Source: a virus. From it: a stretch of DNA of 27,613 nt. A program made the translations under genes and the position numbers. This document shows, one piece after another, positions 1 through 22,292 of this stretch; the first letter of the stretch is position 1, and each line of letters opens with the position of its first letter. A model generated the notes under the pieces. It worked only from the letters and a program-made list of their open reading frames with translations. It was not told the DNA's origin and did no database searches. Location of the stretch: the IMG/VR virus record IMGVR_UViG_3300025117_000206, positions 1 through 27,613 of that record; one strand, given 5' to 3'.

Positions 1-2
1 CT

Positions 3-902
3 GATTATTGCACCATCGACCGCACAACAGGCAAGTCGCGTTCAATACGCAACGAAACAGCCAATTTTGCAGGTTCAGGCTCCGGGGCAACAGCCGGTGG
101 CTTAGGTTATCCGCGTACATCTACATCGCGTTACAATTACGAAGTTGCCGCAGGGCTTAAAGGTTCAGGCTGGTCTAATTTAACATGGCTCGACCGCATG
201 TACCTGGCCTGCCTGATGTACATCGAGTACCGCACTAAAAACCTTAAGGTTTCGCTTGGCGCAGGCGCATCGAATTGGAGCAGCGCCAATTGGAGCGCCT
301 ACAATAGTTATAATCCCGTATTTAAAATGTTTGAGGCGCAATTGGCATTGTCGAATACTTCCGAAATCAATACAAAAGGCTACATGTCCGGCATTTTTAC
401 ACGGGTATTTACCAGCCCTGCATACAATACACCGGTCCCGGTTTACCGTGGTAAAAATTTGCTTTGGGGAAATTTGTGGGCATGGATTTCGGGCATCGAA
501 CTCGAAGTACAATCAGTAGCCGATGGCGGTAAATCGTCGCTATATGTGTGCTACAACAACGCACTGTTAGATGCTAACCGCAGCGATGTCAGTTTTGCAT
601 TTAAATCGGTTTATACATTAATTAGTAGCGAAGTGCCACGGGTTGACGGGTGGGTGAAAACTATTTTTCCCGGTACAATTGCGGGCAATGTATTAACTGG
701 AGCAGCCGAAACAACTTATGGCTGTGCGTATAATTGGAACAGCAATCTACCTGCTTCTGGAACTGTGCGACGCGGTGTCCTTTTCGGTGCGAACCTGCTT
801 TACGGTGGCACTTGCGCCCTCGGATCGGCGCTTGCGAACTACGGTCCTTCGAACGCGAACGCGAACTTCGGCGGCGGCTTCCGTGCTAACGTGTCCGAAT
901 AA
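3..902 (+). CDS. DGR variable target protein, probable receptor-binding tail protein (5'-partial)
   Basis: The reading frame is open from the first bases of the window (frame of position 3) to TAA at 900-902, so the true start lies upstream; the internal ATG at 198 is not the start. The C-terminal part has the look of the C-type-lectin/formylglycine-enzyme-like fold used by DGR targets: a 'LLWGNLWAWISGIE' segment (compare GNVWEW-type motifs), then Gly/Asn-rich sequence from RGVLFGAN to the end. The last ~45 residues include the variable repeat at 772-886, which matches the template repeat at 1102-1216 apart from adenine-derived changes. By family this should be a tail-tip or fibre protein displaying a variable ligand-binding surface. 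That it binds the host receptor is inferred. The target assignment is firm because of the VR/TR pair; the fold assignment is from motif memory only. Confidence 0.9.
   Translation, partial: DYCTIDRTTGKSRSIRNETANFAGSGSGATAGGLGYPRTSTSRYNYEVAAGLKGSGWSNLTWLDRMYLACLMYIEYRTKNLKVSLGAGASNWSSANWSAYNSYNPVFKMFEAQLALSNTSEINTKGYMSGIFTRVFTSPAYNTPVPVYRGKNLLWGNLWAWISGIELEVQSVADGGKSSLYVCYNNALLDANRSDVSFAFKSVYTLISSEVPRVDGWVKTIFPGTIAGNVLTGAAETTYGCAYNWNSNLPASGTVRRGVLFGANLLYGGTCALGSALANYGPSNANANFGGGFRANVSE
772..886 (+). repeat. DGR variable repeat (VR)
   Basis: This 115-bp segment aligns without gaps to 1102-1216 (offset 330). I count 14 differences, and every one is at an adenine of the template (to T, C or G); none of the 87 non-adenine bases differ. 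Encoded changes relative to the template include N to L, Y and T, T to A, I to F and S to G. Identity stops abruptly on both sides (771 and 887). Confidence 0.95.
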
Positions 903-918
903 ATCGAAGCCGAAAAAT

Positions 919-936
919 CCTCGCGTTTCAGCGAGG
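919..936 (+). other. Hairpin just downstream of VR (candidate DGR target-recognition structure)
   Basis: CCTCGC at 919-924 pairs with GCGAGG at 931-936 around a 6-nt loop. It begins 17 nt after the stop codon of the variable gene and 32 nt after VR. In the Bordetella phage DGR a hairpin/cruciform just beyond VR promotes retrohoming; an equivalent role here is inferred. It has no T-run, so it is not an obvious terminator. Confidence 0.5.
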
Positions 937-1051
937 CCGAAACCGCAGCCGGGCTCATCAAAATTGAAAGTCATGGCAAATCGAAAAACTTGAAAAAAGG
1001 TAATGAATGAAATTGAATTTTAAAATGAAGATAAACGAAGCCTTTCTTCCT

Positions 1052-1072
1052 CCCTCCCCATTTTGGGGAGGG
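1052..1072. repeat. GC-rich palindromic intergenic repeat
   Basis: CCCTCCCC at 1052-1059 pairs perfectly with GGGGAGGG at 1065-1072 around a 5-nt loop, followed by GGGGTGGGG-like sequence. It resembles the C/G-rich hairpins scattered between genes in Bacteroidota. It sits about 30 bp before the template repeat. The rest of 903-1101 has no ORF I can support. Confidence 0.6.
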
Positions 1073-1101
1073 TAGGGGTGGGGCTGGGCGGCTCATTCTC
1101 T

Positions 1102-1216
1102 GCGGTGTCCTATTCGGTGCGAACCTGAATAACGGTGGCAATTGCGCCCTCGGATCGGCGAATGCGAACAACGGTCCTTCGAACACGAACGCGAACATCG
1201 GCAGCAGCTAACGTGC
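1102..1216 (+). repeat. DGR template repeat (TR)
   Basis: This is the non-coding donor copy of the VR. Read in the VR frame it is rich in AAY codons exactly where the VR varies (for example LNN, GGN, SAN, NN), which is the classic DGR design in which AAY can become almost any residue without making a stop. 28 adenines are present and 14 of them differ in the current VR. Unusually, the TR contains an in-frame TAA at 1209-1211, which is TTC in the VR. A second possible alignment of the 3' end (GCTAACGTG at 1207-1215 with 885-893) would imply an 8-nt length difference there. Confidence 0.95.
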
Positions 1217-1339
1217 CATAAAATTGAAGGAATGAGAGCCCCGGCAGGATGCCGGAACATGACAAAAACAAAAGCCTGTTAGTAGGGAAACTGAAAGCTG
1301 GCGTGGTGGCAGCACGGATACACCAACAAAACAAACCGC
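1102..1339 (+). ncRNA. Putative DGR TR RNA with structured downstream spacer
   Basis: The TR and the 123 nt between it and the reverse-transcriptase start have no supported ORF. In Bordetella phage the TR RNA needs its downstream spacer as binding site and primer for the reverse transcriptase. Here the spacer holds a strong hairpin, CCGGCA (1241-1246) pairing with TGCCGG (1250-1255) around GGA. I could not place the RNA's 5' end or promoter with confidence. Confidence 0.55.
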
Positions 1340-2320
1340 ATGAAACGAAAAGGAAACATCAGGGACGAATTTTTAACGTATGCCAATTTCGACAAAGCAG
1401 AGCGGAAGGCACGTAAAAACAAGGCAGACACTTATGGGGTAATACAGTTCGACAAAAACAGGGAGGCCAACCTTCAGGAATTGATCGGGCTGTTTTCGGA
1501 AGACCGGTTTAGGTCGAGTACACCTAAAACATTTACCATGATGGCCGATGCCGGTAAAGTGAGGGAGATTACCAAAATGCCCTATTTTCCCGATCGGATT
1601 GCGCATCATGCCATTTTAAACATGATCGAAGAGCGGCTTACCCGCTCATTTATTGCAAACACGTTCAACAGCATCAAGCATCGCGGCATACATTTGCTCA
1701 ATCAAAGGCTCAAACACGACTTGCACGTCGATCCGGAGGGAACCAGATATTGCCTGAAAATAGATATCCGGAAGTTTTATCCTTCGGTGCCGTGTAACCG
1801 AATTAAAGAAGAGCTGCGGCGTTACATCAAAGACAAATGGTTCCTGGCAATTATCGACGAAGTACTCGATACCACCGATGGATTAAGCATTGGCGGCCTG
1901 CTTTCGCAGATATTTTCGAATACCTACGTCAACCGGCTCGATCATTACATCAAGGAAGAACTGAAAGTGAGGTATTATTACCGCTATGCCGACGATATGG
2001 TTTTTCTGGCCGCCGATAAACCAAGCCTGCACCAGGCACTGTGGCGCGTCCGCAATTATTTGTGGTATAACCTTGAACTGGAGCTGAAGAAAAACTGGCA
2101 GATCTTTGAAGTTGATGAACGGGGCATTGATTATGTGGGCTATGTTTTCAGGCATACGCACACGCGAATCCGGAAGCGGATTAAAAAGAATTTTGTAAAG
2201 AAACGGCATAACGCCAAATCAGTAACCTCATACAAAGGAATGCTGAAATGGTGTGATTCCAGACATTTAATTTATAACATTTTAGAATTGGACAATCATG
2301 CAAAAAAACGTACAAATTAA
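1340..2320 (+). CDS. DGR reverse transcriptase
   Basis: This enzyme copies the TR RNA into cDNA with adenine-specific errors, which then replaces the VR. The 326-residue protein shows the family motifs in order: KIDIRKFYPSV (motif A, catalytic Asp about residue 142), GLSIGGLLSQIFSN (motif B with the DGR-typical SQ at 189-190, where retron and group II enzymes have SP), RYADDMVF (motif C, Asp 218-219) and GIDYVGYVF with a following basic tail (KRIKKNF). Length is normal for the family. It starts 124 nt after the TR and overlaps the next gene by 23 bp, so the two are probably co-transcribed. No avd-like accessory gene is found beside it. The call is secure. Confidence 0.97.
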   Translation: MKRKGNIRDEFLTYANFDKAERKARKNKADTYGVIQFDKNREANLQELIGLFSEDRFRSSTPKTFTMMADAGKVREITKMPYFPDRIAHHAILNMIEERLTRSFIANTFNSIKHRGIHLLNQRLKHDLHVDPEGTRYCLKIDIRKFYPSVPCNRIKEELRRYIKDKWFLAIIDEVLDTTDGLSIGGLLSQIFSNTYVNRLDHYIKEELKVRYYYRYADDMVFLAADKPSLHQALWRVRNYLWYNLELELKKNWQIFEVDERGIDYVGYVFRHTHTRIRKRIKKNFVKKRHNAKSVTSYKGMLKWCDSRHLIYNILELDNHAKKRTN

Positions 2321-4281: not shown

Positions 4282-4311
4282 AGATATTTGTGCGATATAT
4301 TTTAAATATCT
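4282..4311. promoter_or_regulatory. Operator-like inverted repeat
   Basis: AGATATTT (4282-4289) and AAATATCT (4304-4311) are perfect inverted arms separated by 14 bp. They end next to the -33 region of the antirepressor promoter, where the divergent RHH protein could act. The sequence is AT-rich, so chance symmetry is possible. Confidence 0.4.
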
Positions 4312-4312
4312 G

Positions 4313-4344
4313 TTGTATATGTGATAGAATATTATTTATATTTG
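4313..4344 (+). promoter_or_regulatory. Bacteroidota-type promoter for the antirepressor gene
   Basis: TATATTTG (4337-4344) matches TAnnTTTG exactly, with TTG at 4313-4315, 21 bp upstream. Transcription from about 4350 would give a leader of about 24 nt before ATG 4374. This supports that start over the in-frame ATG at 4290, which lies upstream of the promoter. Confidence 0.65.
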
Positions 4345-4373
4345 TTCAATCAAATATTTTAAAGTTCATACGT

Positions 4374-4907
4374 ATGAAAAATGAGATTGTAAAAATTAAT
4401 GGAGCTGAGTTTTTATGTCCACGCGACGGCGACGATATTTTTGTTGCCATAAAACCAGCTTGCGAGTTCCTTGGAATTGATCCTTCATCGCAGATGAGAA
4501 ATCTGAAAAACGACCCTGATTTTCTTGGTTCAGTTGTGGTCAATATGACCACAACTGGAGCCGATGGAAAACAGTATGAAATGGTGTGTTTGCCCCTTCA
4601 ATTTTTCTTTGGTTGGTTGGCTCAAATCGATCACACGAAAGTGAAAGAAGAAATCAGGCCAACAGTTATTCAGTACAAACTTGAAGTTTGCAATGTGCTT
4701 TATAGCCACTTTATGGGTGCCCGTAAATTCCTTGAAGAAAAAGAAAGTGCAATTGGTAAACTGAATGATCGTATTAAATCTGCTCGCAAAAATTTCAGCA
4801 ATGCCAAATCTGTACTCAGCGATGCCGAAGATGCAATGGACAAAGTAGCCCGTTTAACTTATGAAGAATATAAGGTTACAGGGTTTCAGATGAACTTAGA
4901 TTTTTAA
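4374..4907 (+). CDS. P22-type antirepressor, N-terminal domain protein
   Basis: The 177-residue product matches the P22 antirepressor N-terminal pattern through residues ~15-120: DDIFVAIKPACEFLGIDPSSQMRNL, then a strand-rich middle (DGKQYEMVCLPLQFFFGWLAQID), then KEEIRPTVIQYKLEVCNVLYSHF. The C-terminal ~60 residues are a charged coiled coil (EEKESAIGKLNDRIKSARKNF). By family such proteins inactivate a phage repressor or act in superinfection control, but many remain untested. It is divergent from an RHH gene, like the Arc/Mnt-controlled ant gene of P22, and is closed by its own terminator. Start chosen from the promoter position. Confidence 0.85.
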   Translation: MKNEIVKINGAEFLCPRDGDDIFVAIKPACEFLGIDPSSQMRNLKNDPDFLGSVVVNMTTTGADGKQYEMVCLPLQFFFGWLAQIDHTKVKEEIRPTVIQYKLEVCNVLYSHFMGARKFLEEKESAIGKLNDRIKSARKNFSNAKSVLSDAEDAMDKVARLTYEEYKVTGFQMNLDF

Positions 4908-8700: not shown

Positions 8701-9669
8701 AAAGGCGACGAAGACCGTGCAAAAGAATTGGCCGATCTTAAAAAGAAATATCTCGACGAAGAGGTATTGGCAAAGGAAGAAAAAGTCAATGATCTGGCCG
8801 CTCTCGACAAATTATATCAGGACGGAGCAATTAGTTCTTATGAAGAATATCAGCGATTAAAAACTGAAATCAATAAAAAATATGAACAGAGCAGATTAGA
8901 TAAAGCTATTGAATTTGGGCAGAAAGCTCAGCAATTTATATCGCTTGGTTCGAACCTGGTGCAAACATTAATGGATGCAGAATTAGCAAAAGCTGGTGAT
9001 AACGAAGAAAAGAAAGCGCAAATAAAGAAGAAATATGCAAATGCACAGTTCTTGATGGCTGCCAGCGAAATAGTTGTAAATACCGCTGTTGCTATTATGC
9101 AGGGGTTTGCTCAACTTGGGCCAATTGGCGGAGCAATCGCAGCGGTATTGCTTGGAGCCACCGGAGCCGCACAACTTTCTATTGCTAATTCTGAACGTCA
9201 GAAAATAATGGGCTCCAAACAATCTGGCGGATATGCTAATTTTGATGGCGCCGAAAATGAGGTTGATGGTGTGTACCATAAAAAAGAATTTATCGCTTCA
9301 GCCCCGGCAGTGCGAAATCCAACGGTAAAACCAATTCTTGATATTATTAACCTGGCACAAAAAAACGGCACCATTGCACAGCTTAATTTACCTACTGTAC
9401 TGGCTGCAACTGGGTCGTTGCCAAATGGAAGACAAAGCGGAGGTTTTGCAAGCGAAATTATACCAACTGGAAGCCCTACTACTCCAATATCTCCATCGGC
9501 ATATGCTACCCGTGACCCCGAGCTCACCGCCGCTCTCAATAACATGTCACGCGCGGTTGCCCTTCTGGTTAAAAACGGCGTTCAATTCCCGATCGTGCCA
9601 TTTAAAAAGCAGTTGGACGAAGTTTCCGACCTGATTAATCAAACTGGAATGAGAGGGTTTAAAAAGTAA
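5722..9669 (+). CDS. Phage tail tape measure protein (TP901 family)
   Basis: The 1315-residue protein sets tail length and is probably packed in the tail tube. It opens with ~130 residues of coiled coil, then a hydrophobic helix (146-170) and the TP901-type core (~170-450: NLSALTGLAGENLDWL, AQDIVDAFTKTGSARPELL, AGRSLKGVLIDM, KFGTENIATIQIL). Hydrophobic segments follow at ~476-495 and 559-581 and a large one at ~1109-1153. A long coiled coil covers ~770-1070. The C-terminal 150 residues are glycine-rich with GGYANFDGAENEVDGVYHKKEF, a pattern common at this position in Bacteroidota tape measures. It has its own putative late promoter. The long minus-strand ORFs inside are shadows. Confidence 0.95.
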   Translation: MKNEVARPKVILDGKQAEQELENLTAKAKKFRDAMMEAAAAGDPQKEKRFQQQLKATTTEIRNLKKEAFDVDRVLKNINGASFNELSQAVRKATNDLKKMQQTDPGYQAQQQKVVALKTKLGELSNEQKVHEPLWSRMANGANKYFSVITAGAASLAGLILGMKQVVQSFNDYEERVDNLSALTGLAGENLDWLSQKAKDLSTSTLEGNIRVKQSAQDIVDAFTKTGSARPELLKNKEALAETTQEAIILANAAKTELYPAIEALTMVMNQYNVPASEARRIINVLAAGSKEGAGEIPYLTTAFEKAGTVASLAGISIETLGATIETLAPRITQPEIAGRSLKGVLIDMQTGADDTNPAIVGLSTALENLGKKNLSVTELTKKFGTENIATIQILLTNIEELKRYEKAMTGTNVAIEQAAINTDNNNAKLAQAKNRINVISIALGEKLAPAMTLVTGYFGKSLAVLSYLVDVFIKYSGLIFTSTAAIVGYTVAIELATLWETRSNAEKGIGLALTKLKVFWHGVERGALLLSAAAQALMTGNTTRATAAMRLFNIETKMNPIGLLVGIIAAAVVALAMYSRGLTAAQQAQKAVNDVNIEAQKAMVEEKVKVEQLLKIAKNKNLSDETRLKALKDLNEISPEYYGNLTLETINTKAADDATKNYIESIKKKAKAQAGFQKLVDIEKELIDLQNGKGAESTFWQDTWNMATSAGNAAVYAGKSVNTALSNIDEKTKALIETKKKLTEQMDNENKTPASTDSGKNPGGDDKAAQDLIKLKEKELQDINEEIAATPALIAARNQRAEAKQKEIDALKELGTTKGKKEDDKSKDAAYKALEIANRKELNLIKQYQIEVNATEEEYNKALEEEEINALNKKLALQIKYGDDYSDTMAAILDKQLKIQNDIDKKTDDEKKKSLKKELDDLDNQQKNELALLKKGALAKGLSEEETNALLITKEIEFLNQKLILEKKYGQDTVETTAAITSKINELAENAVKGDEDRAKELADLKKKYLDEEVLAKEEKVNDLAALDKLYQDGAISSYEEYQRLKTEINKKYEQSRLDKAIEFGQKAQQFISLGSNLVQTLMDAELAKAGDNEEKKAQIKKKYANAQFLMAASEIVVNTAVAIMQGFAQLGPIGGAIAAVLLGATGAAQLSIANSERQKIMGSKQSGGYANFDGAENEVDGVYHKKEFIASAPAVRNPTVKPILDIINLAQKNGTIAQLNLPTVLAATGSLPNGRQSGGFASEIIPTGSPTTPISPSAYATRDPELTAALNNMSRAVALLVKNGVQFPIVPFKKQLDEVSDLINQTGMRGFKK

Positions 9670-9843
9670 CAGCCATTTACAATTAGACGATTTACTATTT
9701 ACGATTTGGAGCCCTGATCGGAGCGATTGGGGTTATAATAGTAAATGGTAAATAAATAAATCGTAAATATTCTGTCCTTTCTCGACCCCGCACCCTACGC
9801 TATATTCGTAAATAGTAAATGAATAAATAGTAAATATTTTCTC
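9670..9843. repeat. AT-rich repeat-filled intergenic region
   Basis: This spacer has several copies, in both orientations, of GTAAATAGTAAAT/ATTTACTATTTACG-like units (for example around 9690-9706, 9736-9770 and 9808-9838), plus late promoter copy 2. No ORF is supported. A 23-bp stretch at 9750-9772 recurs exactly at 25988-26010. Confidence 0.7.
9773..9808 (+). promoter_or_regulatory. Putative phage late promoter, copy 2
   Basis: TGTCCTTTC at 9773-9781 and TATATTCG at 9801-9808, again 28 bp start to start. The box ends 35 nt before ATG 9844. Confidence 0.75.
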
Positions 9844-11055
9844 ATGGCAGTCAATCACTCCATATACGGCGGACCTGTTCAACTCTCAGGCAATAAAGTT
9901 GAAATAGAAGTCATAAACGACGCCATCGTTGGCGAATCGCCACGCGCATTGCTTAAGGCTACCAGTAGAGACGGGGCAGTGGCCGGTGGCCCGTTCATTG
10001 ACTCGCGTCCCTGGCTCCCGTTGCCTACTCCTCTCGAAGGTCAAGGGATGGCAACCTTCGATTTTTCGGAATACCTTGATGCGCCAACCGATTTCAATTT
10101 CACCCATCCATACGGCGAATCCATTGCGGTGAAACATCCGCTCCGGGCTTTCGATATTGATATTCTGGCAGGCGCCAGCTACATTGATAATGATCTGGAG
10201 AGTTTAACATACATGCAAAAAATTGAAGCCTGGCAAGCTGTTGAAGAAGCCGTGGCCATCCGCATCCTGAAAGGAGGGATGAGCCAGCAGCGCCAATCGG
10301 AATATAACGAAGCCGCCACCAACTTCTTTCAGGATTTTATCCAGGGCAATAAGTTCCTGACCCACCGCCCCGACTTCCAGCGCATATCGTACAATCAGCC
10401 CGTGCGGTTATGGTATTTGCTGCCCGAAACCGAACAGGTTACCCGCGTCATCAAAATTGAATACACCGACGCCGACGACCAGGTAGTGGTAATCACCGAA
10501 ATCATCACGCTGGATCCGGATGGTTTGTATGAATTCATACTCGATCCTGTAAAACTCGAAATCCCCACCGATGCCAAACAGATGAAAGTTTACCAGTTTG
10601 ACGATGGCACACAGGTAGGCGAAGCCCGTACCTTCATCTTCGATCATACATATTACGAAAACAACACCTTCCTGTTTTTTGCCAATTCGCTGGCCGGTAT
10701 TGACGATTGCTGGCTGACCGGCGCCATTAAGATGGGTATTAATGTGGAAGGCGAAACAGGGCTGCAAATCCTCGACCGCACGGCAACCACGCGCGACCGC
10801 TCAACGGTTGTAACCAGCAAAACAGCGGCGCGTAAATGGTCCATCTTTCCGGGCAACCGGCTGAATGTGGCCGAAATGGAAGCCCTTCAGGACCTGATTT
10901 ATTCCCGGTTTATCTGGCTCGTTTGGAACGGCAAAACCATACCGGTAACCCTCGAAAACGGAGAGTTCGAACTGACCGACACCATGCGCGACCTGATAAT
11001 CAACGACGAACTGGAGCTTGTATTTACCGAGGCACACCGTAATAATCATTTTTAA
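9844..11055 (+). CDS. Phage tail structural protein, unassigned
   Basis: This is a 403-residue soluble protein with mixed strands and no signal peptide or repeats. The N-terminus (NHSIYGGPVQLSGNKVEIEV) and an internal YEFILDPVKLEIP suggest a beta-sandwich domain, and the C-terminal TAARKWSIFPGNRLNVAEMEALQDLIYSR is followed by IPVTLENGEFEL. The order tape measure, this gene, fibre, fibre, hub suggests a distal-tail or baseplate component, but I do not recognise a named family. It has its own putative late promoter. Confidence 0.85.
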   Translation: MAVNHSIYGGPVQLSGNKVEIEVINDAIVGESPRALLKATSRDGAVAGGPFIDSRPWLPLPTPLEGQGMATFDFSEYLDAPTDFNFTHPYGESIAVKHPLRAFDIDILAGASYIDNDLESLTYMQKIEAWQAVEEAVAIRILKGGMSQQRQSEYNEAATNFFQDFIQGNKFLTHRPDFQRISYNQPVRLWYLLPETEQVTRVIKIEYTDADDQVVVITEIITLDPDGLYEFILDPVKLEIPTDAKQMKVYQFDDGTQVGEARTFIFDHTYYENNTFLFFANSLAGIDDCWLTGAIKMGINVEGETGLQILDRTATTRDRSTVVTSKTAARKWSIFPGNRLNVAEMEALQDLIYSRFIWLVWNGKTIPVTLENGEFELTDTMRDLIINDELELVFTEAHRNNHF

Positions 11056-11074
11056 CCGAAGGCTGGGGTTTAAC

Positions 11075-11196
11075 CTTAGTAGAAAGAGGAGATAAATGAA
11101 AAACCAACCTTATTACCGTTCGACTGAGCTCACGCCGAAGCCTAATTGATTAAGGTAATAAGGTTGAAATCAAATAGGGTCGATTTTTCTACTAAG
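11075..11196. repeat. 122-bp nested palindromic element
   Basis: Outer arms CTTAGTAGAAA (11075-11085) and TTTCTACTAAG (11186-11196), and inner arms of 13 bp (11105-11117 and 11154-11166, CAACCTTATTACC with its complement), share the same centre. The intervening arms of 19 nt on each side are unpaired. The apex contains GTTCGACTGAGC, similar to common Bacteroidota intergenic repeats. It could be a decayed MITE-like insertion or a structured leader RNA. The remainder of the 332-bp gap 11056-11387 is AT-rich, with a small CGATT/AATCG hairpin at 11203-11216 and no late-promoter motif. Confidence 0.7.
11096..11149 (+). CDS. Possible 17-residue leader peptide
   Basis: ATG 11096 is preceded by AAAGAGGAG, a good Shine-Dalgarno match in a genome that rarely uses them, and the ORF ends at TGA 11147-11149. 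It encodes a polar peptide (MKNQPYYRSTELTPKPN). It lies in the left arm and apex of the nested palindrome, so translation could change the folding of the RNA. It may equally be chance. Confidence 0.25.
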   Translation: MKNQPYYRSTELTPKPN

Positions 11197-11387
11197 TTCT
11201 CCCGATTTATGAATCGAACTTCAATACAGATAACTTGAATCTGCACGTTCAATAATGCCATGTAAAATAGACCGTTTGCAATTATTTGATTTACTGATCA
11301 TTGCGATTTGTTATATAGTAGGTTAAAAAATGAAAATAAGGTTTTTTTTAATAGTAAATAGTAAATAATTAAATAGTCAATAAATTA

Positions 11388-12875
11388 ATGGATGCCATTC
11401 AGCAACTTTTGAAAACAATACGCGCGGTAAGCAAGAGCAATCCGGTTACCTATATGCAATTGTCGGAGATCATCCGGGCACTTTATCGTAAAAGTCCTGC
11501 TGAAGCCTTGATACAGGACGGGCTTATTTCCGGGGGAACGGTTGTCTGGCTGTATGGTTTAAGTTATGCCGTTAGCCAAACGGTTTATGCCATCGGTGGA
11601 GAGGTATTTACTTCACCATCCAGCATCATCACATTGGCTGATGCTGATCCAACCTATTCGCGTATTGATGTAATTGTGGTTAACAACACCGGCGAAGTGG
11701 AAGTGATCACCGGCGAACCTTCAGCCAATCCGCAGAAACCTTCGGTTAATCCGGCCACCCAGATTGAACTCACCAGCGTTTTATTACTGGCCAATGCCAC
11801 CGAGCCCGAAGGCATCACTGACGAAGTGATTTACGACGAGAACATTGAATGGACACCTTCAACATCAGGTGTAACCGTTAATTTTAATTCAACTACCTTA
11901 CCTTTTCATGGAGCTAAATGTGCCGATGCAGGAACAATTGCAAATAATAATACGATCACATTTACCAATAGTGTTCCCTTAACTGTTGCTGACTACGCAA
12001 CTTTATCGCTTTTTTTAAAACTAAAAGCTGTTGCATCAACAAAAAATGCAGTTTACATTCGGTTTCAGTTAGCAGGAGTAGCTATATCACAAGAAGTTGC
12101 AATTACCTGGGCAATAGCTGATACTACAAATTGGCAGGGATCGGTAATAATGTTAGATGATTTTACTTTTACTGATACCACTTTTGATAGTATAAGAATC
12201 AGATGGAGCAGGGTTCAGGGAACTACTGCCCACGCAGGTTTTTATCTCGACCTTATTAAGCTGCAAACCGGGGTGGCCCCTGCTGTTTTTTTTGATACCG
12301 TACAACTTACCGGCGATGTAATTGCTTTAGGAAAAACAGGAACGCCGATACCTTCAGTCCTGAAAAACATCATTACAGCAGGCTCGTTTGGCGATGCCAC
12401 GCATACGCTCACGCTTACCGTTGATGCCAAAGGCCGGATAACTGCTATAACCGCAAATTCTATAACGATTGCCGATGGCCGTGAAGTTGAATTAAGTACT
12501 TCTGGAGGTTATATTGTATGGAGGTATGTTGGCGATCCGGACTGGATTAACTTGGTTGCACTTTCATCGTTAGTTGGTCCTCCCGGGGATGATGGCGCTC
12601 CGGGAGTACAGCCCATAGAGGTAGGCAGTATAACTCTTTCATCCGGATCATGGTCGTTGGTTTCCGGATTATACGAGTACGACCTTGCCAATGCAAATAT
12701 TACCGCCAATTCAATAGTAGATGTGATCCCTGATAATGCTGATATTTCCATTGTAAAAGCCGCAGATATTTTGCCGAAAACCGTTTCGAGCGCCGGAAGT
12801 GTGAAATTGTATTCAACCAATGCACCCACCGGAAATATAGGAGTAACCATTAATATAACGGAGGCCATGCCATGA
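11388..12875 (+). CDS. Tail fibre/baseplate protein with collagen-like segment
   Basis: The 495-residue protein begins with a helical ~50-residue head, then a beta-rich domain resembling baseplate-attached fibre proteins (SRIDVIVVNNTGEVEVITGEPS). A distinct, more AT-rich block (residues ~153-284) looks like a jelly-roll-type domain (FYLDLIKLQTG at its end). A VTLTVDAKGRITAI-like stretch common in phage fibres follows, then a short collagen-like GPPGDDGAPG around residue 396, and a C-terminal beta domain. It overlaps the next gene by 4 nt. It is probably part of the adhesion apparatus. No enzymatic motif is visible. Confidence 0.8.
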   Translation: MDAIQQLLKTIRAVSKSNPVTYMQLSEIIRALYRKSPAEALIQDGLISGGTVVWLYGLSYAVSQTVYAIGGEVFTSPSSIITLADADPTYSRIDVIVVNNTGEVEVITGEPSANPQKPSVNPATQIELTSVLLLANATEPEGITDEVIYDENIEWTPSTSGVTVNFNSTTLPFHGAKCADAGTIANNNTITFTNSVPLTVADYATLSLFLKLKAVASTKNAVYIRFQLAGVAISQEVAITWAIADTTNWQGSVIMLDDFTFTDTTFDSIRIRWSRVQGTTAHAGFYLDLIKLQTGVAPAVFFDTVQLTGDVIALGKTGTPIPSVLKNIITAGSFGDATHTLTLTVDAKGRITAITANSITIADGREVELSTSGGYIVWRYVGDPDWINLVALSSLVGPPGDDGAPGVQPIEVGSITLSSGSWSLVSGLYEYDLANANITANSIVDVIPDNADISIVKAADILPKTVSSAGSVKLYSTNAPTGNIGVTINITEAMP

Positions 12876-14779
12876 GCAAGATAGGAAGTTTCAGATTACC
12901 GATGACCGGCGGTTCGCCAGACCCGGCGGTTTTTTGCCCTGTAAATGATTATGTGCCAGATTTTTTTGTACCTGAACCTGAATGGCCAGCGCTAGATCCT
13001 GTTACTAACGAGATTCAACTTCTGTGTTCTGATGAAGGCGACCGCAGAATAGCTTTTACATGTACGATTCAATCTGCCGGAACTTATACTGTTAAGGTTT
13101 ATGGCGCTGGCGATGCTTTGCTTGACACTCAGGTTAAAAACAACGGAGTAGCATACAACTACCGGTTTACTGAAGGAGCCGGATATGCAGCTAATGGATA
13201 CACAACTTTTAAAGTAAGCATTAAACCAACAGCCGCATTAAACCTGCTTACATTTGCAGTCGGGTATATCAGTGGTAATCAAGTTTCAAACTGGAGAATA
13301 TTAAGTGCAAAGTTCAATGCTCCAAATATGACATCGCTGGCTTCAGCATTCAACAACATTAATGTACTTAGAATACTTGAATTTCTCACAGCAATGGATT
13401 CATGTACTTCTATGGCATCCATGTGTTCTGGCTGTTCCTCGTTGGTTGATTTGATTTTACCTTCGTCTATGAATGCAGTTACAACAATGGCGGCAATGTT
13501 AAGCAACTGCACATCATTCAAAAGAATCACCTGGCCTTCAAGTATTACGTTGTTAAGTATCTGTAATGGTATTTTTGGAGGTTGTTCAGTTCTGGAGAAA
13601 TTGGTTTATCCAGCCTCAATGCCTGCATTAACAAGGCTCGATTCGGCTCATTCGAACTGTTCTTTGCTCTCTTCTGTTACACTTCCAAGTTCAATGCCTT
13701 TGCTTGCCAATATGGATTCATCGTTTAGTAGCTGCGTTAAACTTAAAAGTGTTGCATTCCCTGCAACACAAAATTCCTTGACTAACCTCAGAGCAGCTTT
13801 TTATAATTGTGTATTATTGGCTTCTGTCACACTTCCAACTTCAATGGACTTACTCACTTCATTGGAAACCACATTTCAATACTGCAATGCGCTGAAGTCA
13901 ATGGCATACCCTTCGTCTTTACCTGAGTTGACAACATTAAACGGAACGCATGTCAATAATTATTCATTAATGTCTGTCACCTTGCCAGCATCAATGCCAA
14001 AAAATACTTCGCTGTATCAAACATTTTCTTATTGTTCTGTTTTGCCATCCATTGTAATAACTGCCGCTCAAACACTTGTTACAACAATGTATCAAATGTG
14101 TCAGTATTGCTATGAATTGGCGACACTATCACTTCCGGCAACGATGAACGAGGTATTGACAGCCTATGCTATGTGCTATAATTGCAAGGCTCTGGTTTCA
14201 GTTACATTACCCACCTCAATGAATAAATGTACTAATATAGTTCAAGGGTTTCAAAATTGTAATGCCTTGGTAACAATTACATTACCCACCTCAATGAATC
14301 TTCTTACTGCTATGGGGTCTAGTTGCGCTAATTGTCCAGAGCTTACAACAATAAATCTACCATTATCTTTGCCAGTTATATCAGATATGTCCTCATTTGC
14401 TAGTGTATCTCCTAAAGTAAATTATATAAGCACTTGTACATTCCCGTCCACTCAAGTAAATGCCGGCGGACTATTAGTTAATCATTTATTAACTTCATTT
14501 AATCAACCAACATTACGCGCCTCAATATTTGGAGTTTTTTCTCAAGTAGGAAGCAAACTGCTAACGTCTTGCGAAATAGATTGGGCTAATTCAACTTTCT
14601 CAAGTGGAACTTCTCCACAATTGAGAATAGATCAAAATAATTTAGATGCCACAGAAATAGATAGAATTTTCACCGCCCTGCCTACAGTAACCGGAAAAAC
14701 CATAAATGTGACAAATAACCCCGGGTATGCTACTTGTAATAAAGCTATTGCAGAAGCTAAAGGATGGACGGTAAGTTAA
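12872..14779 (+). CDS. BspA-like leucine-rich-repeat tail fibre, probable adhesin
   Basis: The 635-residue protein has a ~165-residue N-terminal region with a beta-sandwich-like part (AGTYTVKVYGAGDALLDTQV), then 14 consecutive 25-residue repeats (about residues 166-515) of the form L.SVTLPtSMn.lT.l...F.nC.a, and a C-terminal ~120 residues ending in an Asn/Thr-rich LRR-like cap (LRIDQNNLDATEIDRIF). The repeat belongs to the BspA/LRR_5 type used in surface adhesins, although the usual period is 23. A cysteine or asparagine at the NC position recurs in most units. Lying between fibre and hub genes and 4-nt coupled to the former, it is likely a receptor-binding fibre. Codon use is more AT-rich than in the hub gene. 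Confidence 0.88.
   Translation: MSKIGSFRLPMTGGSPDPAVFCPVNDYVPDFFVPEPEWPALDPVTNEIQLLCSDEGDRRIAFTCTIQSAGTYTVKVYGAGDALLDTQVKNNGVAYNYRFTEGAGYAANGYTTFKVSIKPTAALNLLTFAVGYISGNQVSNWRILSAKFNAPNMTSLASAFNNINVLRILEFLTAMDSCTSMASMCSGCSSLVDLILPSSMNAVTTMAAMLSNCTSFKRITWPSSITLLSICNGIFGGCSVLEKLVYPASMPALTRLDSAHSNCSLLSSVTLPSSMPLLANMDSSFSSCVKLKSVAFPATQNSLTNLRAAFYNCVLLASVTLPTSMDLLTSLETTFQYCNALKSMAYPSSLPELTTLNGTHVNNYSLMSVTLPASMPKNTSLYQTFSYCSVLPSIVITAAQTLVTTMYQMCQYCYELATLSLPATMNEVLTAYAMCYNCKALVSVTLPTSMNKCTNIVQGFQNCNALVTITLPTSMNLLTAMGSSCANCPELTTINLPLSLPVISDMSSFASVSPKVNYISTCTFPSTQVNAGGLLVNHLLTSFNQPTLRASIFGVFSQVGSKLLTSCEIDWANSTFSSGTSPQLRIDQNNLDATEIDRIFTALPTVTGKTINVTNNPGYATCNKAIAEAKGWTVS
13367..14416 (+). repeat. 14 coding repeats of 75 bp (LRR units)
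   Basis: The protein repeats start every 25 residues (166, 191, 216 and so on to 491). DNA similarity between units is moderate, strongest at ACACTTCCAAnTTCAATG-like and CCCACCTCAATGAAT segments, so unit gain or loss by recombination is possible. Confidence 0.85.
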
Positions 14780-14797
14780 ACATTAAAATTTTGCAAG

Positions 14798-17593
14798 ATG
14801 TTCACATTAACCATCAACTCGCGCCAGTTAATCCTTGATCCCGGTTTCGGGGTTCCGTTGCTCTATAAAAACCCGTGCTGGTGTTTTAACGAGATCCCTG
14901 GACCGTTGGCGCTCGATGTGTCGATACCCGATAATGATGTGAACCGTAACTATCTTGGTTTTCCGGGTCGCTTTGCCAAAATAGCCAAAAGCAACGACCG
15001 CAAATTTCCAGGGGCCGAATTGCGCTGGAGAGGTTACTTATATATTTACGGCACACTGGTCATCACTAACGCATCCGAAAAAGGTTACGCCGGGTACATC
15101 CAGAGCGAACTGCGGTCACTTAGCGATAGCCAGCGCGAGAAACTTATTGGCGACCACAATTTGCTGGGTGAACTCACATTCGAGAATAAACCCGATTACG
15201 ATCCTGATACCGACCTGTATTGCACCATCAGGCTGAACAATGCAGGTTTTTGGGTAGATAAAGGAAAACGCGAACCTTATACCGATCTGGATGGAAATGC
15301 CACCGAACGCGAAATATTAACCCGCAAATTTGAAGATACGGTCGGGTTCGAGGTCAACTATACTGTAACAGGAGGAGTATTAACGGCTGCCGGTGTGAAT
15401 GGAGTGGTAGTAGTAAGCCCGTTCCCGTTCCTTCACAAACTGATTGAATTGTTGCTGCGCGATAATCAATTTTTCATGCGTAATTATTTTATTCAGGATA
15501 ACGACGATCTTAAAACCCTGTGCCTATATCACAACACATCCATTTGCCGGGCGTATGGACCCAGTATCCTTGCATCAATAACAAAAATTGATTATCACGC
15601 TTTGGTAACCGGCAACGTTGGCACCATTCCCGGATTAATGATCCAGTCGCAGCTTTGGTTAACCGATCAGTTTATGCTGAAAAAGTTATTGCCCAAATTG
15701 GAACTTAACGAGCTGCTGTTGTCGGTACAAAACCTGACCAATACGTTTTTCCACTTCTCCGGAATCAACGACGTGGATAACATTGACCGGGAAAGCCTGT
15801 TCGATATGCAGTCGTTCAACCTTTCGAAATACCGGATAAGCCGTTGGTTGCCCGGTAAACGTCAAAACCTGATCCTAAAATTCAAATTCGATCACGATCC
15901 TGACGATCAGGAATTCAACGAAAACTTTACGGATATCAGCTCCCGTGAAGCTGATATTCAGGACCCGGTAACTGTATATGCCGATTTGGTTGCCATTGCC
16001 GAACCCGCTATTAGTGAAATCCGCCTGGTAACTTCCGAAAAAATGTACTACGAATACCGTCAGGAGACTACGGATGATGAAGATGGAAATTCGATAGAGG
16101 CATTGATGTGGGCGCCGATATCCATCGACCTTCAGGATTATAAATACAATCCTTCAGGTGATGATACGGAAGAAATTCAGACCAAATTTTCAACCCTCCG
16201 GATGCATACAAGTGGCTATCCCATTGGCTACCAGAAAGGAAATAACATCCAGTTCTCACAATTCACGGAAAATTTTTCCCCGCGATTATTGTTTTATAAC
16301 GGCAACAATACAGGTGGGGTAACTACCCCCAGTGGGCTAACCATCGACTGGAAAAGCATCGTTCCGAGACGTTACCGCCGCACGGCTGCCTTTTATGCGA
16401 ATGCCCTGCCGGTTGAAGCTAATTTCAGGTTTCCGGGCAATATTTTTTACAAGGTACTGAACGAAATATATAAACCTTACCTCGACCACGACGGTTCGTT
16501 TTTCATCAAAGAAATGCAGGTCGAGGCCGGAAATTCAGAGTTTGTTGATGCCACGTTAACGGTTTTCAAGAACGAAGATAATGTGTTTGTTGCGGCCCCT
16601 GATATTGTCGAAGGCGGCGGCGAACATGCCGGTGGAGCGCTATTCGTCCCCATGTTTGTTGGGGTAACCGAATACGGTGCGCCTATTTTGGTCGATGCCG
16701 CGGGTTTGACCCGCCCGATGCCGGTATTCGGAAATCTTTCGGATGCCGATTACGCGGAATTTACCTGTGTAGCTTATTCTCCTGACGACAAATTACTCTT
16801 TGTTGGCGGTAACAGCGGCCAGTTGCACGTTTGCGACCTGAGCGATATGGACAATATCCGGTACAAAACGATCTCAGTTTTTGGGGTAATGAATGTAACC
16901 GGCGTGAGCCTGGTTGACAACGGAACAACCAAAACACTGCTGATCGGCTACGGAAACGGATCGGCGGCATGGGCGCAGCCTTATCATGCTGTCTGGGCCG
17001 ATTATGTCAGCAGCGAAGCCGTGCAAACCGCCTCGTTCGATCATGGAACCGGCCACCTGCGCGGTTTTATATATTATGGTGGCTATTACCATGCCGTTAC
17101 CCGCGATGGAGAAGTATTCCGCACGGCCAGCCTTTCGACGATGTGGAGCCAGGTAGCCGATATAGCTGCCGAATTTATTGCGATTGCCGAAACGGCCACG
17201 CATCTTTACGTCGCCGAAGTGAATGAAGACGGACTGTATTGCGAAAAAACGAATACGGCGCAATATTACCGCACCGGGCTTGTCGGGTCGCCATACCAAA
17301 AAGAAAGGACCTTGCAACCCCTGCTGGGCGACAATATTCTATTTATTAACGCCGACGATAATGCCTGTATTTTTATTAAAGATGTCAACACGGCCAGTAC
17401 TCCTATCACCCCTGCCGGAATCAAAAATGCAGGTGGAGCTTGTTTCGATGCCACCAAATACGCCTACATCAGCGTGCGCGATAGTTCGGGCTATACCAAA
17501 ATAGCCAAATACAATGCCGAACTACAAATCCCCGAAGCACTGTGGAGCTACCTGAACGTAAGCGCGTTCTTTACTAAATTGTGGTTGTATTAG
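14798..17593 (+). CDS. Large tail hub/baseplate protein with C-terminal propeller-like domain
   Basis: 931 residues. The N-terminal ~600 residues look like a tail-associated hub protein: a strand-rich start (FTLTINSRQLILDPGFGVPLLY), SIPDNDVNRNYLGFP, a hydrophobic helix pair (PFPFLHKLIELLLRDNQF) and a beta-rich middle. The C-terminal ~290 residues (from about 640) resemble a beta-propeller: FTCVAYSPDDKLLFVGG followed by QLHVCDLSDM is like a WD40 blade, and comparable strands recur (HLYVAEVNEDGLYC, YAYISVRDSSGYTK). It is the last large gene of the tail module and begins 18 nt after the LRR gene. Hub identity is inferred from position and size. Confidence 0.8.
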   Translation: MFTLTINSRQLILDPGFGVPLLYKNPCWCFNEIPGPLALDVSIPDNDVNRNYLGFPGRFAKIAKSNDRKFPGAELRWRGYLYIYGTLVITNASEKGYAGYIQSELRSLSDSQREKLIGDHNLLGELTFENKPDYDPDTDLYCTIRLNNAGFWVDKGKREPYTDLDGNATEREILTRKFEDTVGFEVNYTVTGGVLTAAGVNGVVVVSPFPFLHKLIELLLRDNQFFMRNYFIQDNDDLKTLCLYHNTSICRAYGPSILASITKIDYHALVTGNVGTIPGLMIQSQLWLTDQFMLKKLLPKLELNELLLSVQNLTNTFFHFSGINDVDNIDRESLFDMQSFNLSKYRISRWLPGKRQNLILKFKFDHDPDDQEFNENFTDISSREADIQDPVTVYADLVAIAEPAISEIRLVTSEKMYYEYRQETTDDEDGNSIEALMWAPISIDLQDYKYNPSGDDTEEIQTKFSTLRMHTSGYPIGYQKGNNIQFSQFTENFSPRLLFYNGNNTGGVTTPSGLTIDWKSIVPRRYRRTAAFYANALPVEANFRFPGNIFYKVLNEIYKPYLDHDGSFFIKEMQVEAGNSEFVDATLTVFKNEDNVFVAAPDIVEGGGEHAGGALFVPMFVGVTEYGAPILVDAAGLTRPMPVFGNLSDADYAEFTCVAYSPDDKLLFVGGNSGQLHVCDLSDMDNIRYKTISVFGVMNVTGVSLVDNGTTKTLLIGYGNGSAAWAQPYHAVWADYVSSEAVQTASFDHGTGHLRGFIYYGGYYHAVTRDGEVFRTASLSTMWSQVADIAAEFIAIAETATHLYVAEVNEDGLYCEKTNTAQYYRTGLVGSPYQKERTLQPLLGDNILFINADDNACIFIKDVNTASTPITPAGIKNAGGACFDATKYAYISVRDSSGYTKIAKYNAELQIPEALWSYLNVSAFFTKLWLY

Positions 17594-17754
17594 AGCCTCC
17601 CCTAACCCCTCCAAACGGAGGAAAATTTGTCGCACTGAGCGAACGGGATAATAATGCCGAAGGCATGCCCGGATTATACCACCCCTTCGGGGTTTAACCC
17701 GGCTTATTCGATCGTTTTTCTATAATCATTACAACCCTTCGGGCTTAAATTTTC

Positions 17755-17790
17755 TGTCCTTTCTCCCTTTTCCCGTCTTCCCTATCTTCG
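17755..17790 (+). promoter_or_regulatory. Putative phage late promoter, copy 3
   Basis: TGTCCTTTC at 17755-17763 and TATCTTCG at 17783-17790, 28 bp start to start. The following leader is longer than in the other copies because it contains the 41-bp tandem repeat at 17814-17854. Confidence 0.75.
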
Positions 17791-17813
17791 ATTCAGTAAA
17801 CAGTTCCGAAGGC

Positions 17814-17854
17814 AACCCGTAACCCGTAACCCGTAACCCGTAACCCGTAACCCG
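17814..17854 (+). repeat. Tandem heptanucleotide repeat AACCCGT
   Basis: Five full copies of AACCCGT and a sixth truncated copy lie in the leader between late promoter 3 and the start at 17870. Copy number could change by slippage. Confidence 0.9.
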
Positions 17855-17869
17855 AAATACGCAACGCAC

Positions 17870-18202
17870 ATGCAAAACTACAATTTAGCTGACCATAACT
17901 CGAACAACACCTTCGAAGGCGTTGAGTTTATCCTGCCCAACGAAGATGCGTACAGCCTGGCCTATGCCGCGGTAAAAATACAGGTACGCGCATCGGTAGG
18001 GTCGCCGGTACTGAAAGAATTCAAGACCAGCGACGGAACGCTTGTTATCAACCAACCCTGGACCATTACAGTGCCGCAGCAACTGGTGAAACTTGCACCT
18101 GGAACGTATCAGTGGGACTTGAAAATTATTTTCATTGATGGGCGGAACAAAACATACATCGGCGGAAAATGGACCATTAAACCCGTAATAACCTCGATAT
18201 AA
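17870..18202 (+). CDS. BppU-like baseplate/fibre protein with Ig-like fold
   Basis: The 110-residue protein has the pattern of the N-terminal domain of phage baseplate upper proteins: NTFEGVEFILPN, AAVKIQVRASVGSPVLKEF, TSDGTLVIN, LAPGTYQWDLKIIFIDGRNKTYIGGKWTI. Such domains attach fibres to the tail tip. The stop overlaps the next start by one base (TAATG), so it is coupled to the collagen-like protein, which fits an anchor plus stalk pair. Confidence 0.8.
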   Translation: MQNYNLADHNSNNTFEGVEFILPNEDAYSLAYAAVKIQVRASVGSPVLKEFKTSDGTLVINQPWTITVPQQLVKLAPGTYQWDLKIIFIDGRNKTYIGGKWTIKPVITSI

Positions 18203-18696
18203 TGGACGTAGTTCAGATCATTATCAACGAGTTTCCGGTTGCAGTTAACCTCGAAGTTAATGAGCAGGTCGAAAATGTAACTATTGAGGTCAATCAGGCG
18301 GTTGCGGGTCTTTCGGCGTATATGGACGCGATGGTGAATGGAGGTTTTGAAGGTACTAAAGAAGAATGGTTCGCTTCGCTGAAAGGCGATAAGGGTGATA
18401 AGGGAGAACAGGGCAACCAGGGTGAACCGGGTGCAACCGGAGATCAGGGCGAACAGGGAAACCCCTTCCTGTGGCAGGATTTTACGCAAGACCAGCGCGA
18501 CGAGCTGAAAGGCGATCCTGGTGATCAGGGCGAACCTGGAGAATCGGCACAGTTTGGAGAAGGCGAAAAAATAACCGGAATAGATGCCGGAATCCTGGGC
18601 GAGGAAAGCTATTACGAAGGGTTTATGTATAAATGCGTAGTTGAAGGCGAAGCCAGCGAGACAGTGTGGATTAAATGGGCGGTTATCAACTCATAA
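18202..18696 (+). CDS. Collagen-like phage fibre protein
   Basis: The 164-residue protein has a short N-terminal beta region (VQIIINEFPVAVNLEVNEQ), then interrupted Gly-X-Y collagen repeats at about residues 60-112 (GDKGDKGEQGNQGEPGATG and GDPGDQGEPGE) split by FLWQDFTQDQRDELK, a motif often seen in phage collagen-like stalks, and a small C-terminal domain. It probably trimerises as a stalk. It is coupled by TAATG to the BppU-like gene and followed by late promoter copy 4. Confidence 0.85.
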   Translation: MDVVQIIINEFPVAVNLEVNEQVENVTIEVNQAVAGLSAYMDAMVNGGFEGTKEEWFASLKGDKGDKGEQGNQGEPGATGDQGEQGNPFLWQDFTQDQRDELKGDPGDQGEPGESAQFGEGEKITGIDAGILGEESYYEGFMYKCVVEGEASETVWIKWAVINS

Positions 18697-18698
18697 GT

Positions 18699-18734
18699 TG
18701 TCCTTTCGTTAAATACGCTTTCGCCCCATCTTTG
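18699..18734 (+). promoter_or_regulatory. Putative phage late promoter, copy 4
   Basis: TGTCCTTTC at 18699-18707 and CATCTTTG at 18727-18734, 28 bp start to start. It immediately follows the collagen-like gene and precedes the holin ATG by 13 nt, so the holin mRNA would be nearly leaderless from this site. Confidence 0.7.
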
Positions 18735-18747
18735 AAATCAAAACGCT

Positions 18748-19194
18748 ATGGACGAATACTTAACCTTCCCAAATCTTGTAAAAGGCATCTGGGAACTTCT
18801 CTGCGGAATATTGGGAACAATCATCGGCTATTTTCTGCCAATCAAGGATATGGTCAATTTTATAGTACTACTTTTTTTTCTCGATGTATTGATGGGCTAT
18901 TGGGCGGCCCGCAAATTGCGCGGCGAAAAGTTCAGTACCCGCATAGTCTGGCGAACGACCATGCCGCGGATGTTGATATCGATCCTGTTAATCATGATGG
19001 CCTATATGTGGGACGATGTTTTCAACCAGTCATTTCTGCAAACTTACAACCTGATAGGCTGGTTCATCGCCGGAGTACTAATTTTCAGTATCGGAAAAAA
19101 TGGATACAAAATAACCAAATGGCAAGGGTTTCAGGGGCTTGAAAACATTTTTAAAAAGAAAATTGAGAAAGAAACCGGCGCTGATATAACCTAA
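18748..19194 (+). CDS. Phage holin (toxin-secretion/phage-lysis holin family)
   Basis: 148 residues with about four membrane segments: ~16-30 (LLCGILGTIIGYFL), ~36-56 (VNFIVLLFFLDVLMGYWAA), ~75-93 (RMLISILLIMMAYMW) and ~103-118 (LIGWFIAGVLIFSIG). The D-V-L-M-G-Y-W-A-A-R motif followed by K-F-S-T-R is typical of the Bacteroidota and Firmicutes holin family 4. It should form pores in the inner membrane that release the endolysin encoded downstream. It begins the lysis module behind its own putative late promoter. Confidence 0.92.
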   Translation: MDEYLTFPNLVKGIWELLCGILGTIIGYFLPIKDMVNFIVLLFFLDVLMGYWAARKLRGEKFSTRIVWRTTMPRMLISILLIMMAYMWDDVFNQSFLQTYNLIGWFIAGVLIFSIGKNGYKITKWQGFQGLENIFKKKIEKETGADIT

Positions 19195-19206
19195 AATCGT
19201 AACGAT

Positions 19207-19707
19207 ATGAAAAACCTACTCTTATTACTCATCGCGTTTTTGTTTTTTAGTGCGGTTACCGCTCAAATACCCACACGGGTACGCAAGGCCGACCAGGCGC
19301 AATGGCTCTTATACTCGGCCTATTGCCGCACCATGGTACCTGATACCATTCAGCAGCCCGGAAGCCGCGGTTTCGAGCATGTAACCGAGATAAAGACCGA
19401 CTTTACCACCACGAACGGCACAACCTACCATGCGGGCGACCGGTATTACTTCTGGAACGAACCCATTGACACCATCTGGTATTTTTGTAAGTGTAAAGAT
19501 TACAAGGAAAACTCGCTGAACACCCGGATACAGCCCTACACGATCACAGTTCCTAACCGCGTGTTTTTTTTGCGTCCGAAAATCTGTTTAGTACGCCAGC
19601 GCCGCGCAACGGTAAAAGATTTTTACGAACATTGGATGTTGGGCAACCTCGATTACTATAAGTACGAGACCATCAGTCTTACATACAGGATTAAACTGGT
19701 AGAGTAA
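19207..19707 (+). CDS. Exported hypothetical protein in lysis module
   Basis: The 166-residue product has a clear signal peptide (hydrophobic 4-17, likely cleavage after VTA at ~19). The mature part is mixed alpha/beta with two cysteines close together (FCKCKDY) and no recognised domain. It starts 13 nt after the holin stop and overlaps the next gene by one base (TAATG). A periplasmic or outer-membrane role in lysis or superinfection exclusion is possible but only from context. Confidence 0.8.
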   Translation: MKNLLLLLIAFLFFSAVTAQIPTRVRKADQAQWLLYSAYCRTMVPDTIQQPGSRGFEHVTEIKTDFTTTNGTTYHAGDRYYFWNEPIDTIWYFCKCKDYKENSLNTRIQPYTITVPNRVFFLRPKICLVRQRRATVKDFYEHWMLGNLDYYKYETISLTYRIKLVE

Positions 19708-19940
19708 TGGCAGATTTATTTGTTGGAGCAACACACCACGATGAACTAGCGTTAAAATTTACCTATAAAAATGCGCCAGCGTGTTATTGGGAAATCAAAA
19801 AGCTTAAAAGGGGTACAATAGAGCGACTGATAGGCAAAAAACTAAAAAGTAAAGACGGGATGCATCCTTGTGACGACATAAATTTATTAAGGAATTGGGA
19901 TAATTTACCCGATTATAATGAGCAAGAACGAAGTAAATAA
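19707..19940 (+). CDS. Small hypothetical protein
   Basis: 77 residues, soluble, basic in the middle (KKLKRGTIERLIGKKLKSKDG) and acidic at the end. No family recognised. It is coupled to the upstream exported protein by TAATG and sits 12 nt before the endolysin start. Confidence 0.7.
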   Translation: MADLFVGATHHDELALKFTYKNAPACYWEIKKLKRGTIERLIGKKLKSKDGMHPCDDINLLRNWDNLPDYNEQERSK

Positions 19941-19952
19941 AACTTTAAAACC

Positions 19953-20375
19953 ATGCAACGCATCAACCTTACTGCTAAGCTGTATTTGGACGAATATATT
20001 CCAAAAGACTTGTACCTGAAATATCAGGATAAACCGCACATTTTAATCGGGTTGTTGGATAACCGATTAATTGAAGCTGATCAGAAACTACGCGAGGTGT
20101 TCGGTTCTGTTACGATCAACAACTGGTGGAACGGTGGTCAGCGCAACTGGTCGGGATTGCGCACACCAGAAAGCCCCGATTACTCACCAACCAGTCAGCA
20201 TTCGTTTGGCCGCGCTTCCGACAAACTATTTTCGGTGCCAGCCGAAGAAGTCCGGAAATATATCCAGGAACACTGGCACGAATTGGGTATCACCTGCATC
20301 GAAGACGGCGTAAGCTGGGTGCATAGCGATGTCAGGTTCTGTACCGGAAACGAACTTTTAATTGTACGGCCATGA
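19953..20375 (+). CDS. Endolysin, peptidase M15A family
   Basis: The 140-residue protein is a compact zinc peptidase expected to cut peptidoglycan stem peptides at lysis. The M15 signature is complete: SQHSFGRASD gives zinc ligands His83 and Asp90, and SWVHSDVR gives His124. NNWWNGGQRNWSGLRT precedes them as in other phage M15A enzymes. There is no signal peptide, so release through the holin is expected. A small gene overlaps its stop (ATGA). Confidence 0.93.
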   Translation: MQRINLTAKLYLDEYIPKDLYLKYQDKPHILIGLLDNRLIEADQKLREVFGSVTINNWWNGGQRNWSGLRTPESPDYSPTSQHSFGRASDKLFSVPAEEVRKYIQEHWHELGITCIEDGVSWVHSDVRFCTGNELLIVRP

Positions 20376-20497
20376 AAACCACAAATAGAAAAGAGAAAAG
20401 GGAAAAAAAGAAAGGGTGGATGAAGGCCGTCCATTTATTTTACCTGAAAGAAGAAGCCATCTGGTGGGCCGTTTCGCATGCATTAGCTAAATTATAA
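20372..20497 (+). CDS. Small basic hypothetical protein
   Basis: A 41-residue ORF starts in ATGA overlap with the endolysin stop and ends 4 nt before the next start. The N-terminal half is very basic (RKEKREKKKGWMK), and the C-terminal half is an amphipathic Trp-rich helix (FYLKEEAIWWAVSHALAKL). Tight packing supports it as a real gene. Function unknown; membrane-surface association is possible. Confidence 0.65.
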   Translation: MKTTNRKEKREKKKGWMKAVHLFYLKEEAIWWAVSHALAKL

Positions 20498-20501
20498 AAA
20501 T

Positions 20502-21472: not shown

Positions 21473-21478
21473 ACCATT

Positions 21479-21715: not shown

Positions 21716-21743
21716 TGGCATCGTTAGGTGAGCCTGTCGAACC

Positions 21744-22289: not shown

Positions 22290-22292
22290 GTT

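Follow-up and report, generated by a model that had tools for sequence, protein, structure and literature searches.

The DNA analysed here, hereafter the window, comprises 27,613 nucleotides, positions 1 to 27,613 of the viral record IMGVR_UViG_3300025117_000206. Its beginning holds the 3′ part of a target gene with a variable repeat (VR) at its end, a non-coding template repeat (TR) and a reverse transcriptase (RT) gene, in that order and on the same strand (Table 1). VR and TR are direct repeats of 115 bp, and an ungapped comparison between them found 14 mismatches, all 14 at adenines of TR and none at the 87 other template bases, exactly as the initial annotation had counted. From TR to VR, the changes were A>T at seven sites, A>C at four and A>G at three. 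If 14 mismatches were randomly placed over 115 sites, of which 28 are adenines, the probability that all of them would fall on A is 1.1e-10. VR and the stop codon of the target gene are separated by 13 nt, and no accessory ORF is located between VR and RT. A search of the rest of the record yielded no further TR-like pair, leaving 772-886/1102-1216 as the sole pair, and no extra VRs were found in the window record or in the host genome of a sister phage described below.

Table 1. Features of the DGR locus and their positions in the window.
Feature	Position	Strand	Description
Exchanged block, right-hand part	1..1522	+	Divergence from sister phage; whole block -939 to 1522
DGR target gene, 3′ part	3..902	+	C-type-lectin-like tail-tip/collar-fibre protein (predicted); 5′ end beyond window
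VR	772..886	+	115 bp; variable repeat at target gene 3′ end
IMH-like VR 3′ end	873..886	+	Four A-site differences (873, 876, 880, 881), same in sister alleles
Hairpin CCTCGC-GTTTCA-GCGAGG	919..936	+	6-bp stem; candidate target-site hairpin
TR	1102..1216	+	Non-coding; 115 bp, 28 A; in-frame TAA (1209-1211) by VR frame
TR-RT spacer	1217..1339	+	Assigned by position only; role inferred from BPP-1
DGR reverse transcriptase	1340..2320	+	326 aa; YADD and IGGLLSQ intact; PF00078, phrog_1423

The sequence between TR and the RT gene has an equivalent in BPP-1, which serves RT recruitment and cDNA priming (PMC12875486). Downstream of VR, the candidate hairpin begins 32 nt beyond the repeat end, compared with 4 nt for the hairpin described after VR in BPP-1 (PMC3240598), and it is kept in the sister allele; read on the minus strand, the same sequence also scores as a terminator-like site. 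Among relatives, hairpins were equally common after TR and after VR, with no enrichment at VR, and a post-VR hairpin was therefore rejected as a family-wide feature, the region after TR being indistinguishable. A GC-rich palindrome, CCCTCCCCA-TTT-TGGGGAGGG, was also observed at 1052-1072, 29 nt upstream of TR. Its centre is swapped for another palindrome-like sequence in the sister allele, and it is possibly a Bacteroidota intergenic repeat.

The RT matched PF00078 (5.4e-15) and phrog_1423 (6.8e-92), and the PDB entry that it matched most closely in sequence was the reverse transcriptase 8ub7 (2.2e-28), which we take to be the BPP-1 RT. Since its ORF follows TR and both the YADD motif and IGGLLSQ, a motif of the IGxxxSQ type, are intact, the complete adjoining RT of the initial annotation was borne out. 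It is 41% identical to the RT of crAssphage LMMB, 34.5% to that of hankyphage and 29% to that of BPP-1, and in the tree it and its sister alone form a long branch. Searches for Avd (PF22296/PF05635) in the window record and two of its kin (G000, G002, G003) gave no match, while the BPP-1 Avd, used as a positive control, does match PF22296. The gene following RT (2298-2909) was considered as an accessory gene and rejected; it is restricted to the closest kin and is thus not a conserved accessory.

The full target protein of 432 aa was obtained from an identical contig (L003:4265-5563). It matched phrog_5302 'tail protein' (9.2e-33) and had over 50 near-full-length homologues with ~30% identity, which are themselves DGR targets in relatives. 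An AF2 model built from 50 sequences reached a mean pLDDT of 72 and a pTM of 0.79, with only moderate confidence in the VR region (residues 351-432, block pLDDT 33-85). Searched against the PDB, the model gave its sole significant matches to TaqVP of Thermus aquaticus (5vf4, E 1.8e-4), a DGR variable protein of CLec fold, with TM scores of only 0.37-0.46 and 11-13% identity. Matches in BFVD included tail fibre, tail-collar fibre (crAss-like ones among them) and receptor-binding-complex proteins, and the target sequence profile had no match among solved structures. With moderate confidence, then, the target is predicted to fold as a C-type lectin. It is very probably a tail receptor-binding (tail-tip or collar-fibre) protein, in line with the initial annotation, and homology and gene neighbourhood suggest that it would bind a receptor.

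A sister phage (G002) was available for comparison. Its identity to the window is 99.93% across 14.2 kb (9216-23441) and 100% across 25781-27613, and it is 99.8% identical to an upstream kin record over 8.7 kb, giving 99.8-99.9% identity over more than 20 kb in total. Against this background stands a 2.5-kb block, from -939 to 1522 in window coordinates, with 5-31% divergence per 150 bp, flanked by identical sequence, 636 bp on its left and 590 bp on its right. The block takes in the end of the upstream (fibre) gene, spans target, VR and TR, and stops after the first 61 RT codons, and this content indicates that target and template were replaced together, exchanged as one unit.

The sister allele of the locus is carried by contig L004 and by contig L083 of Prolixibacteraceae UBA9940, whose loci are identical, and its TR and VR differ at 19 sites, all 19 at TR adenines. 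The two TRs differ from each other at nine sites (7.8%). At seven of these, including all five without A in either TR, both VRs follow their own TR, and the remaining two (repeat positions 11 and 84) have A in the window TR and are altered in the window VR. The initial annotation had proposed a comparison of VR among related phages, and where the TRs agree we found 11 differences between the VRs, every one at a shared TR adenine. Non-A template bases agree with VR at 87 of 87 positions in the window and 89 of 89 in the sister allele. Based on the TR-TR rate, approximately seven non-A mismatches per pair would be expected without transfer since the allele split, and none was seen (P ~0.001 each). 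Transfer from TR to VR is supported at least over 779-862, where changes at non-A sites of a TR recur in the VR paired with it. Because this holds for both alleles, these alignments strongly support retrohoming within the history of the allele. Retrohoming had at first been placed after the divergence of the two phages; with the discovery of the block exchange this reading was abandoned, and the agreement of TR and VR is dated to the split of the alleles instead.

A wider survey of related RT loci yielded about 92 distinct A-biased TR/VR pairs, collected with a score that penalises non-A mismatches, so that counts for the family are biased towards A-only pairs. In sister pairs of relatives, nearly all VR-VR differences occurred at TR adenines and every non-A change in TR was also present in VR. 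The base placed at a TR adenine depended on its 3′ neighbour (relatives L004-L119). In the RT family of the window, A before G was replaced by G only, at 137 of 137 changed sites, among them synonymous GCA>GCG changes in many TR clusters. The rule was also seen in the BPP-1-like RT group (14/14; 49 pairs, L144-L208), and recent work on the BPP-1 RT reported that the 3′ neighbour is the dominant influence and that misincorporation of G is almost absent in NAG. In AAT, the second A mostly became C in the RT family of the window and not in the BPP-1 group, a preference for which selection or shared ancestry may in part be responsible.

The four differences closest to the 3′ end of VR behave differently from the other ten. 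At 873, 876, 880 and 881 the sister VR has identical bases, whereas other A sites differ, and the in-frame TAA of TR corresponds to TTC in VR. Among the ~92 distinct pairs of relatives, TR adenines located 6-11 nt from the repeat 3′ end were replaced in VR in 85 of 85 cases, and those in most of the repeat body in ~50-80%. Sister pairs of relatives nearly always had the same base at the 3′ end (exceptions were L068/L070 and L071/L117), and the synonymous codon CTA at this end became CTT in VR in 33 of 39 cases. Likewise, TAT in the repeat tail changed to T in 37 of 46 cases, with a mixed outcome in the body. An in-frame TR stop was present in 13 of the pairs, 12 of them having it within the last 8 nt. 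In the IMH of BPP-1, the transfer of markers halts before the 3′ end (PMC3240598). The comparison with the sister allele and the relatives thus makes it likely that 873, 876, 880 and 881 are fixed differences that set the 3′ end of VR (IMH) apart from that of TR (IMH*), and the last ~14 bp (IMH region) are probably not copied into VR, to which the in-frame TAA in the 3′ segment of TR also points. With this end left uncopied, the products of mutagenic copying are likely ten differences at 24 upstream adenines rather than 14 at 28, and one of the ten (782) is synonymous.

The initial annotation had ascribed all 14 differences to mutagenic retrohoming, which agrees with the ten upstream sites and not with the four that are shared with the sister allele. 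It is unlikely that all 14 are products of the latest retrohoming event, even though every one of them lies at a TR adenine. Both 873 and 876 are A before G, the context that turns to G everywhere in the relatives, and since these two sites would be G in nearly all relatives anyway, the main support for the uncopied limit comes from 880-881 and from the relatives. If there is selection for Phe at codon 879-881, it could make re-mutation to TTC recur. Moreover, the A-only 3′ end of relatives is partly a product of the pair finder, which penalises non-A mismatches; a BPP-1 control with annotated TR and VR had 17 A-site differences in the body and five at the 3′ end, four of the five non-A, so that a true 3′ end can hold non-A mismatches. 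Nevertheless, the sister allele shares its bases at exactly these four sites, and the changes of CTA and TAT in the tails of relatives, together with the near-constant agreement of sister pairs there, favour a fixed and uncopied 3′ end.

The claim of recent activity, drawn in the initial annotation from the 14 differences, was too strong. Wherever contigs L003 and L058 overlap the window they match it at every base, also within VR, so that VR is the same in all three assemblies with the window allele (possibly not independent samples), and IMG/VR contained no other alleles of the window VR beyond these three contigs. In addition, four of the 14 differences are probably the fixed ones of the 3′ end. 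What the sequences support is retrohoming in the history of the allele. The identical VRs, and a region before TR/RT in which no promoter-like site was seen, could also indicate a fossil in which the repeats and RT persist while retrohoming has stopped in this phage. We consider this improbable, because the RT is open with intact motifs and because complete non-A agreement was kept in both alleles despite TRs that are 7.8% apart. An RT from a defence or retron system next to an unrelated duplication can be practically dismissed: NCBIfam gave solely sub-threshold matches of the RT to group II intron, retron and DRT models, far below their cut-offs, whereas the phrog_1423 match, the IGxxxSQ motif, the A-only pattern and the same RT-TR-VR arrangement in ~90 relatives, with TR/VR pairs at most related RT loci, argue for a DGR. 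The DGR identity assigned by the initial annotation agrees with this combination of an A-only repeat pair, a DGR-type RT and a VR at the 3′ end of the target.

Among known systems, the DGR of crAssphage LMMB (PMC7290462) shares with the window the target-VR-TR-RT order, the lack of avd, a tail-collar fibre target and the YADD RT; its authors assigned it to 'lineage 3', CLec3. Unlike LMMB, the window phage is temperate, has an integrase and a tape-measure gene and is not crAss-like, and its RT stands apart on a long branch. At its end the window VR reads GGGFRA (GGGFRANVSE) instead of the SRLC motif of lineage 3, and most VRs of relatives end in GSRLCF. As LMMB itself is without SRLC, the missing motif is not decisive against lineage 3. 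The window DGR is a likely rather than a certain member of this lineage, given its ending and an RT branch that it shares with its sister alone. With BPP-1 (mtd/avd/brt; PMC3240598), the window shares A-specific TR/VR differences, fixed 3′-end differences (five in BPP-1), a candidate hairpin after VR and a probable tail receptor-binding target, and it differs in the lack of Avd, in a distant RT and in 3′-end differences that are all at A. The Bacteroides hankyphage p00 (PMC6199706) is also a temperate Bacteroidota phage, with 14 A mismatches in a 117-bp repeat; its RT is only distantly similar and its target is different and much larger.

Elsewhere in the window, three segments are absent from or unlike the sister phage (3.3-5.6 kb, 8.2-9.2 kb and 23442-25780). 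The first includes a protein with a P22_AR_N domain (4290-4907, 7e-29), without counterpart there. The last contains a repressor-like gene (23659-24090), a LuxR-type regulator and tRNA-Met (25319-25391), a tRNA being the only match in an Rfam search, and its differences suggest an immunity region other than that of the sister phage. Located among the tail genes is a 635-aa protein with BspA-type leucine-rich repeats (12872-14779; LRR_5, 2e-33), a possible second surface-binding protein. A collagen-like tail-fibre-type protein (18202-18696) is followed by holin-like (18748-19194) and endolysin-like (19953-20375) genes. In the upstream kin record, glycosyltransferase and nucleotide-sugar epimerase genes (L122:2025-4919) possibly modify surface glycans in the same phage. 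A near-identical prophage is present in a Prolixibacteraceae genome assembly.

We are highly confident that the locus is a functional-looking, Avd-less DGR of target-VR-TR-RT order in a temperate tailed Bacteroidota phage, which would rewrite the C-terminal end of a tail-tip protein resembling C-type lectins, and that the block from the fibre to the 5′ part of RT has also been exchanged. This reading builds on the A-only differences, the match between each VR and its TR, the intact RT motifs and the fold class of the target, and it implies that the element would be transcribed and active and that its target would bind a receptor. By homology to BPP-1, the TR RNA would be reverse-transcribed by RT with misincorporation opposite template adenines, and the cDNA would replace the matching stretch of VR, probably leaving out the last ~14 bp with the in-frame TAA. 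Up to approximately ten residues at the C-terminus of the target, mostly at Asn codons in TR, could be changed in this way, and an altered tail tip may in turn alter the receptor specificity of the phage. Swapping of the whole block between otherwise near-identical phages would add a second layer of variation, in which a new target comes with its matching template, since both lie within the block along with the fibre end and RT start. Whether tail-tip specificity in this phage population is governed by two coupled layers, adenine-directed rewriting and the exchange of self-consistent blocks, with the uncopied in-frame stop of TR marking the limit of rewriting, seems to us an evenly balanced question.

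The window DGR clearly adds a new member to a kind that is well known. Through it, a Prolixibacteraceae phage and a divergent branch of RTs join the Avd-less DGRs, and the near-identical phage pair lets TR-to-VR transfer, its 3′ limit and cassette exchange be told apart. A widespread shortcut is corrected as well: mutagenesis is overstated when all A differences, among them the fixed ones of the 3′ end, are taken as evidence of activity.
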